Position numbers and translations under genes: made by a program
The notes under the pieces: model-generated
What the model was told of the DNA's origin: nothing
Seen by the model: the letters and a program-made list of their open reading frames with translations, nothing else
Database searches by the model: none
NCBI GenBank assembly: GCA_002747515.1
Contig: PDPP01000022.1
Span: 1 to 56,440, forward strand
From: Candidatus Moraniibacteriota bacterium
GTDB lineage: Bacteria; Patescibacteriota; Minisyncoccia; Moranbacterales; GCA-2747515
DNA length: 56,440 bases
Direction: 5' to 3'
Part shown: positions 44,368 to 45,980 of the stretch, one piece after another
Position numbering within the stretch: the stretch's first letter is position 1
Layout: each line of letters begins with the position of its first letter

Positions 44368-45445
44368 CTATAGTCGTAGAAATGCCATGATAAACGCATC
44401 AATATCCCCATCCAAAACATCCTCCACATGTGATGTCTCATGTTTTGTCCGATGATCTTTGACCATTTTGTATGGATGCAAGACATACGAACGAATTTGA
44501 TTGCCCCATCCGGCATCTGCGATATCACCGCGCAATGCGTTTTTTTTCTGCTCTTGCTCATCAAGATGCTTTTTGTGCAATTTTGCTTTGAGCAGTTTGA
44601 GCGCATTTTCTTTGTTTTGCATTTGCGAGCGTTCATTTTGACACTGTGCTTGGATGCCTGTCGGCACATGCGTCACACGTACCGCACTATCCGTCGTATT
44701 AACACTTTGTCCACCAGCACCCGACGAACGATACGTATCCACACGCACATCACTCATATCTAGTGCAACTTCTGCAATCTCATCAATCACCGGCATCACA
44801 TCCACACGCGCAAAAGACGTCTGTCGCAGATTATCCGCATTAAACGGCGACAAACGCACCAACCGATGTACACCCGCCTCGGCACGCAAATGTCCATACG
44901 CCAATCGCCCCGTGATTTCACACGTCGCACTTTTGATCCCTGCTTCCGCCCCAGACACTTTGTCCAAAATCGTCACAGAAAACCCTTTTTTCTCCGCCCA
45001 CTTAAGATACATCGCTAGAAGCATCTCCGTCCAGCCCTGCGCGTCCACTCCGCCGGCACCGGCAAACAAAGAAATAATCGCACTGTGTTCATCGTATTCA
45101 CCATCAAAAAGCGTCTGCATGTGTAATTTTTCTACAGACTGTTCTACTGCGTGTAATTGTTTTTCCAATTCCGCACGCTCCGCGTCACTCCCCACCATTT
45201 CCGCAAGCGCACACAAATCCGCCAGCTCCGTATCCAACGCATCAAACTGCACAACGTCCTGATGACATGCATCACGCTGCTGCATCACTGATCGTGCTTT
45301 TTCTTGATCATCCCAAAAACCGGTCTCTGCCGATTGCGCATCCAGCGCCACAATCGTTTCACGTTTCTGGGCAATGTCAAAGAGAGTCCTGCAACTGCAG
45401 GAGTTTATCATGTAATGCCGTACATGTAGCGATAAATTCTTTCAT
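44368..45445 (-). CDS. prfB: Peptide chain release factor 2 with programmed +1 frameshift
   Basis: 'RLSPF' and 'SSGAGGQSVNTTDSAVRVTH' (GGQ); frame 1 ATG at 45445 MKEFIATCTALHDKLLQLQDSL, CTT TGA C at 45382..45376, then DIAQKRET in the +1 frame. Confidence 0.93.
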
Positions 45446-45497: not shown

Positions 45498-45567
45498 CTG
45501 GATCCCCGCCTCCGCGGGGATGACACCATCCCAAAACACTGTCATTCCCGCGGAGGCAGGAATCCAG
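45498..45567. repeat. Inverted pair of REP-like elements (family II)
   Basis: CTGGATCCCCGCCTCCGCGGGGATGAC ... GTCATTCCCGCGGAGGCAGGAATCCAG, ~24/27 complementary, 16-nt spacer. Confidence 0.85.
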
Positions 45568-45607: not shown

Positions 45608-45683
45608 AGCCATCCATCGGATTCGAACCGATGGCCTGCACGTGGAGTTTATCCGCCTGTGGCGGGAATGTGTTGCTCTGCCA
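45608..45683 (-). pseudogene. 3' portion of a disrupted tRNA (tRNA-Thr-like)
   Basis: ATCGG-TTCGAAT-CCGAT T arm and GGATGGC+T acceptor 3' strand; anticodon arm replaced by CCGCC-ACA-GGCGG palindrome; lacks acceptor 5' strand and part of the D arm. Confidence 0.75.
45652..45683 (-). repeat. 32-bp direct repeat copy 1 (part of broken tRNA)
   Basis: tccgcctgtggcgggaatgtgttgctctgcca, one mismatch to 45807..45838. Confidence 0.9.
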
Positions 45684-45714
45684 AAATCACTTTTAATTTT
45701 TCAGTATTCTTTTG

Positions 45715-45787
45715 AGCCCACAACCGGGATTGAACCGATGGCCTGCACGTTACGAATGTGCTGCTCTACCAGCTGAGCTATGTGGGC
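45715..45787 (-). tRNA. tRNA-Thr(CGT)
   Basis: GCCCACA/TGTGGGC acceptor; D arm GCTCAGCTGGTAGAGC; anticodon loop TTCGTAA; T arm ATCGG-TTCAATC-CCGGT. Terminal A-C mismatch in the anticodon stem. Confidence 0.85.
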
Positions 45788-45806
45788 TGAGACTACGACG
45801 GACTTG

Positions 45807-45838
45807 TCCGCCTGTGGCGGGAATGTGTTGCTCTACCA
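45807..45838 (-). repeat. 32-bp direct repeat copy 2
   Basis: tccgcctgtggcgggaatgtgttgctctacca. Confidence 0.9.
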
Positions 45839-45854
45839 ACTGAGCTAGGATGGC
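45807..45854 (-). pseudogene. 5' half of a disrupted tRNA (tRNA-Thr-like)
   Basis: GCCATCC-TA-GCTCAGTTGGTAGAGC then ACACATTCCCGCCACAGGCGGA; its GCCATCC pairs perfectly with GGATGGC of the 3' portion at 45609..45615. Confidence 0.75.
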
Positions 45855-45955
45855 ACCACCAGTACAGTGTATAAAAAAAATCCATTCTTTGCAATGTTTT
45901 GAATCAGTTATAATCATTGCCATTTTTCTACACATTCACATATTTGTCATCCCCG

Positions 45956-45980
45956 CGAAGGCGGAGAACCAGTATTTTTC
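45956..45980. repeat. REP-like 'gtcatccccgcgaaggcggagaacc' (family II)
   Basis: Similarity to 45498..45567 and 53528 copies. Confidence 0.65.

Follow-up and report, generated by a model that had tools for sequence, protein, structure and literature searches.

We analysed a window of 56,440 nucleotides, which is contig 34 of the 39 contigs that make up the 1.08-Mb, 99.8% complete genome of a tiny, uncultured Candidatus Moraniibacteriota bacterium (G000). On its minus strand lies a 247-nt locus (45608–45854) in which an intact tRNA-Thr(CGT) gene is placed between the two halves of another tRNA. The genes prfB and ftsE follow downstream, and the frameshift signal of prfB is likewise found beside the tRNA of congeners and of several genomes from a different family. 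The features of the locus are as follows.

45821–45854, minus strand: 5′ half of the old resident tRNA-Thr(CGT), with acceptor GCCATCC, D arm and 5′ side of the anticodon arm; read from the sequence and identified by the intact gene before prfB in G001–G005.
45808–45820, minus strand: palindrome copy 1, CCGCC-ACA-GGCGG, continuing into GGACAAGTCC; kin of a dispersed palindromic element.
45804–45839, minus strand: 36-nt direct repeat, copy 1 (repeat search, 94%).
45788–45803, minus strand: spacer preceding the inner tRNA, GTCCGTCGTAGTCTCA (sequence).
45714–45787, minus strand: the inner tRNA-Thr(CGT), which is intact, has the acceptor GCCCACA/TGTGGGC and is probably the gene in use (ARAGORN, Rfam).
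45685–45713, minus strand: AT-rich spacer following the inner tRNA (sequence).
45649–45684, minus strand: 36-nt direct repeat, copy 2, with palindrome copy 2 at 45653–45665 (repeat search).
45644–45666, minus strand: mini-element CCCGCC-ACA-GGCGGATAAACTCC, palindromic and dispersed, occupying the old tRNA's anticodon loop (pattern search of order genomes).
45608–45643, minus strand: 3′ half of the old resident, with 3′ anticodon-arm strand, variable loop, T arm, acceptor GGATGGC and T73; pairs 7/7 with the 5′ half.
44368–45411, minus strand: body of prfB, encoding release factor 2 (TIGR00020, 459 bits); syntenic marker.
Near 45445 and near 45382, minus strand: ATG of the prfB leader and CTTTGAC frameshift site, respectively.

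The inner gene was called by both ARAGORN and Rfam (60.7 bits, above the gathering score), and neither program called a tRNA in the outer halves when the locus was scanned. The outer 5′ half starts at 45854 with GCCATCCTAGCTCAGTTGGTAGAGCAACACATTC, and the 3′ half reads ATCGG TTCGAAT CCGAT GGATGGC T, ending at 45608. Their acceptor strands GCCATCC/GGATGGC pair at 7/7 positions and their T stem at 5/5, which bears out the broken tRNA with matching 7-bp acceptor strands around a tRNA-Thr(CGT) reported in a preliminary description of this DNA. The inner acceptor is unlike the outer one, and the CGT anticodon is absent from the outer halves. The two direct repeats, offset by 155 nt, are identical at 34 of 36 positions; the 32-bp repeats described earlier fall inside them, and both carry CCGCC-ACA-GGCGG. 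Within the window CCGCCACAGGCGG is present exactly two times, both at the nested locus, and these are also its only two occurrences in the whole genome; the chance expectation with two mismatches allowed is 0.19 per window. At about 155 bp, the insert is too short to hold a gene. A promoter-like TTGCAA-N17-TACACT had been proposed in front of the 5′ half; the string is there, but it scores 8/12, under the cut-off of the promoter scan. Flanking the locus on both sides, at 45498–45567 and 45945–45972 of the window, are REP-like inverted repeats of the type GTCATCCCCGCG...GGCGGGGATCCAG.

We next asked which tRNA the outer halves derive from. All five congeners examined (G001–G005) have one intact tRNA-Thr(CGT) each, directly before prfB, with the acceptor GCCATCC, GCCATTC or GCCATCT. 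We joined the outer halves, leaving out the palindrome, and ranked 98 intact Thr(CGT) genes from the order by their identity to the product: these congeners took ranks 1–5 of 98, with identities of 0.89–0.85 (chance, 1.5e-8). By this comparison the outer halves are a relic of the ancestral resident tRNA-Thr(CGT). The inner tRNA has other affinities. Its best match (0.90) is to G007, a genome of the same family and another genus in which the gene is nested too, followed by G125, G020 and G019 from other families (0.86 each). Seven of its eight best matches come from outside the family, and the congeners reach identities of 0.74–0.81 at ranks 20–76. Similar patterns were found at other loci: the inner tRNA of G130 matches family f6 at 0.96, and in G019 the inner tRNA matches family f5 at 0.97, the outer one its own family at 0.95. 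Since the inner gene matches other genera and families and the outer halves match the congeners, the working Thr(CGT) gene is probably of foreign origin and came to lie within its predecessor. A resident resembling its congeners around an incomer resembling other lineages is what xenologous displacement would leave; as the tRNAs are only 73 nt long, these ancestry claims are based on identity ranks rather than a supported tree. The outer 3′ arm GTGCAGGCC is closer to the inner gene than to the congeners, so some conversion or exchange of sequence between the two copies must be assumed and probably took place.

The locus is not an isolated case: nesting of this kind is found at many places in the order and also outside it. 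A strict pattern detected Thr(CGT) in 97 of 131 genomes of the order, most of them metagenome assemblies, and almost always as a single copy. We scanned 99 intact Thr(CGT) loci for a 5′ half on the same strand within 260 nt upstream, using the opposite strand as a control. A stray 5′ half was found at 20 of the 99 loci (one in the control), and fully paired (7/7) outer halves flanked ten of the 99 (none in the control), spread over families f1, f4, f6, f9, f10 and f11. The scan flagged 29 loci, of which the flags in G001 and G002 were false, the motif lying within prfB. Among 51 intact Thr(GGT) or Thr(TGT) genes taken as a further control there were three stray 5′ halves and no paired ones, a modest contrast; one of these strays, in the Thr(GGT) locus of G027, looks nested, and the one in G039 is a tandem decayed copy. 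This G039 copy (1459–1595 of its locus) is a full decayed tRNA-Thr(TGT) with palindromes in the D and T loops, in tandem with an intact copy.

Several of these loci can be read as displacement series in which, judging by the acceptors, one resident received different incomers. The resident of family f11, GCCGATG, is uninterrupted in G055, G049 and G037; G074 has it broken around GCCATCT, G043 around GCCGGAA and G075 around GCCGCCT. Genus g23 has GCCGATG intact in G042, G031 and G091. Its member G097 has GCCAAGA right after a GCCGATG 5′ half, and in G054 GCCATCT lies within GCCAAGA, with a further GCCGATG-type 3′ half (ending CATCGGC) beyond. Two 5′ halves stand upstream in each of G026 and G100. 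Loci with identical inner and outer acceptors, among them G041, G068, G085 and G117, may be local duplications. Nesting also extends to other tRNAs and taxa: G032 has a Gly(CCC) gene within the halves of another such gene (GCGGGAT/ATCCCGC), and G361, from another order of the same class, a Leu(CAG) gene within Leu halves (GCCGATG/CATCGGC). An outer pair GCCGATA/TATCGGC surrounds an intact Thr gene in JAKANV010000013.1, and LCEZ01000003.1 (Parcubacteria) shows a comparable nesting whose 3′ side has decayed. Searches of the open part of PubMed Central brought up no account of one bacterial tRNA gene nested within another, a partial coverage that is not proof of novelty.

The palindrome within the outer halves is not confined to tRNA genes. 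The pattern TCCGCC-NNN-GGCGGAYAARYTCC gave 37 matches, distributed over 25 of the order's 124 searched genomes; its reversed form, used as a control, gave none. Outside tRNAs, the element is found within hairpin-like repeats such as GTCATCCCGAG / GCGAGGGATC; in tRNA remnants it occupies D and anticodon loops. Its sequence contexts mark the palindrome as a putative dispersed element of tRNA and hairpin loops, and a tRNA-specific conserved intron, for which the shared GGATAAACTCCA motif might have been taken, was ruled out by the occurrence of the same element in non-tRNA palindromes and D loops. Although the family is dispersed across the order, the exact palindrome core is limited in G000 to the nested locus. 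Outer halves have gained further palindromes elsewhere: G034 and G062 have one in the T loop, and the same outer half in G063 is without it. That outer halves freely gain palindromes argues against tRNA constraint on them. In G019 (C10, near 15955), another tRNA 3′ half carrying this palindromic element is found about 370 bp off and on the opposite strand, preceded by AAGTCCGATTATAGTCTCAG, which resembles AAGTCCGTCGTAGTCTCAG of the window.

The other threonine tRNAs of G000 had been suggested as a check on the locus, and the outcome was mixed. The Thr(GGT) gene is whole and Thr(CGT) is represented by the inner gene, and the one tRNA-Thr(TGT) that the search of the genome turned up (C18:5179–5235, minus strand; about 875–950 of the extracted locus) is without its 5′ acceptor strand. 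Its first ~10 nt are replaced and read ATCTCATAAAT, against GCCACTTTAG in congener G005. Pairing of the acceptor is thereby precluded, and the decoding of ACA is left without explanation. Contig C1 of the same genome has two more irregularities. Between tRNA-Leu(GAG) and tRNA-Phe, a palindrome-rich stretch replaces the tRNA-Val(TAC) of G005, and no tRNA-Val(TAC) was found in the G000 genome. At C1:1230–1455, a group I intron (86.8 bits) splits a CAT anticodon between CA and T in a tRNA that is uninterrupted in G005.

Taken together, we consider it likely that one tRNA gene was displaced in place by another. A foreign intact tRNA-Thr(CGT) with short flanks would have inserted inside the ancestral resident before prfB and broken it, with palindromic mini-elements located in the anticodon loop of the broken gene. 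The inner gene is now the sole Thr(CGT) gene and would probably be transcribed from the promoter captured from the resident, and the outer halves, having presumably lost their function, would be decaying debris. As to how the incoming DNA inserted, we favour entry mediated by short homology or by hairpins in these palindrome-rich genomes. C34 isoacceptors are partly covered by the U34 isoacceptor, and the break may have been tolerated because of this partial redundancy. Gly(CCC), Leu(CAG) and Thr(CGT) are all C34 isoacceptors, as the redundancy argument would have it, although the cases are few and Thr(GGT) in G027 is an exception. Several findings count against displacement: the outer 3′ arm is closer to the inner gene than to the congeners, some loci have identical inner and outer acceptors, the 155-nt offset and the 36-nt repeats do not follow from a simple insertion, inner tRNAs show no overall enrichment of inverted repeats around them, and the contrast with the Thr(GGT)/Thr(TGT) control is modest. 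In xenologous gene replacement by horizontal transfer, as appears to be the case here, a foreign isoacceptor takes over from the resident; unlike such replacement, the insertion here is inside the resident, and both halves are left as a record.

A more specific form of in-place displacement, whose probability therefore overlaps with it, is that the incomer is a mobile cassette, that is, a tRNA with palindromic ends that targets the loops of tRNA genes, perhaps by means of a REP-associated Y1 transposase. Patescibacteria would then carry self-targeting tRNA cassettes that kill the same tRNA gene, seize its promoter and leave serial nested layers, a proposal that we regard as tentative and on balance unlikely. 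Similar ends and the D-stem site GGYAGA/YYTnCCCGCC ... tRNA ... GGCGGGGC occur around different residents in families f4, f7 and f11, and also in the Thr(GGT) locus of G027 (family f3); a tRNA-Leu from a different order has a comparable 5′ end. The outer anticodon of G094 is split between CG and T by an inverted repeat of 13 bp. These shared ends and the G094 repeat suggest mobility. Conversely, the ends vary between classes, the window's own locus is without that cassette, and neither a tRNA-free cassette nor an excision product was seen. Inverted repeats were not enriched over a mismatched-pair control and were rejected as a general cassette end, and a search of viral contigs for the D-stem junction gave no match. 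A single Y1_Tnp (IS200/REP-type) ORF of 224 aa is present in G000 (C39, minus strand, 1297–1971 of the extracted locus). It passes the Pfam cut-off but falls under the NCBIfam cut-off for REP transposases (26.9 of 80 bits), and is possibly linked to the palindromes. REP/REPIN sequences and the Rickettsia palindromic elements are short dispersed palindromes with many insertion sites. The elements described here resemble them, and REP/REPIN with its Y1 (RAYT) transposases also in the Y1_Tnp ORF, but differ in their location, which is the loops of tRNAs and hairpins, and in the nesting of entire tRNA genes together with them.

Local duplication followed by decay would do without foreign DNA: a palindrome would have hit the resident, slippage or unequal crossing would have copied the region, one copy would have stayed intact, and the acceptors would have diverged later by compensatory change. 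We find this doubtful for the window. It would account for the 36-nt direct repeats on both sides of the inner tRNA and for the anticodon arm and GTGCAGGCCATCGGTTC that inner and outer copies have in common, and is further favoured by the several relatives with identical inner and outer acceptors and by the tandem decayed Thr(TGT) copy in G039. It does not sit well with the difference between inner and outer tRNA of G000 in the acceptor and on the 3′ side of the T stem, with the inner gene matching other lineages above the congeners, or with the f11 and g23 series, where different inner acceptors lie in the same resident. The preliminary description had preferred a history in which a palindrome entered a tRNA-Thr-like gene and a duplication or insertion came next, and had rated a functional split or intron-bearing tRNA as less likely. 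That preference holds, but by its best matches the inner gene resembles a xenologue rather than a plain duplicate.

It is very unlikely that the locus is the remnant of a classical integrase-mediated integration at a tRNA gene. Integrases use the anticodon and T loops of tRNA genes (PMC8371274), and G034, G062 and G063 each have an intact tRNA with a 3′ half of the same acceptor downstream, as expected after integration. Foreign DNA at tRNA loops and a gene that keeps the resident's promoter are features that integration (PMC8371274) and, by the proposed displacement, the nested loci have in common. Yet integration normally restores the resident tRNA gene and usually brings in a larger element (PMC8371274), whereas both resident halves here stay broken, the intact gene that replaces them is a different tRNA with another acceptor, and the insert measures only ~155 bp.

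Highly improbable is a functional split or intron-bearing tRNA, in which joining of the outer halves, or their pairing in trans by way of the 7-bp acceptor, would yield a second working tRNA or a tRNA-like RNA. The acceptor and T stem are perfect, but perfect stems are equally expected soon after breakage. In the predicted fold of the 247-nt RNA, the acceptor closes around the inner tRNA (z = −2.27), and the group I intron in the tRNA with the CAT anticodon shows that the genome does have a real tRNA intron. That intron is the only match to the group I model; no RF00028 core was found at the locus, where Rfam reports tRNA only. Nor do the halves rejoin to a canonical tRNA with an anticodon, as those of archaeal-type split tRNAs do. 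Collapsing the repeats had been expected to give one tRNA with about 19 extra nt. The collapsed form received no tRNA call by default; with introns allowed, ARAGORN did call a 19-nt intron, but in a Gly(CCC) and not a Thr tRNA. Outer copies in other genomes have acquired palindromes in the T, D and anticodon loops or are missing one of their halves. The missing anticodon, the missing group I core and the decay of outer halves in relatives led us to reject this explanation, in agreement with the earlier view that it was the less likely one. The nested loci recall archaeal split and intron-bearing tRNAs (PMC4090602) and bacterial tRNA group I introns in their complementary-acceptor halves and anticodon-loop insertion, and are set apart from them by the lost anticodon, the lack of a group I core and the free decay of relatives' outer halves. 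An assembly artefact or strain mixture in this metagenome-assembled genome of 39 contigs is equally improbable, as comparable structures occur in many independent assemblies, including contigs of 939 kb (G054) and 635 kb (G097).

The nesting found in many related bacteria suggests an unusual route of in-place tRNA gene displacement. If this is right, the loci would be layered fossils that preserve, in one stretch of DNA, the old gene, its successor and the order in which things happened, and would reveal the way in which redundant tRNAs are renewed in small genomes. Nesting would also explain tRNAs that annotation tools miss or misread in such bacteria, and the nested loci would form a ready test set for tRNA genes as mobile, self-targeting elements.
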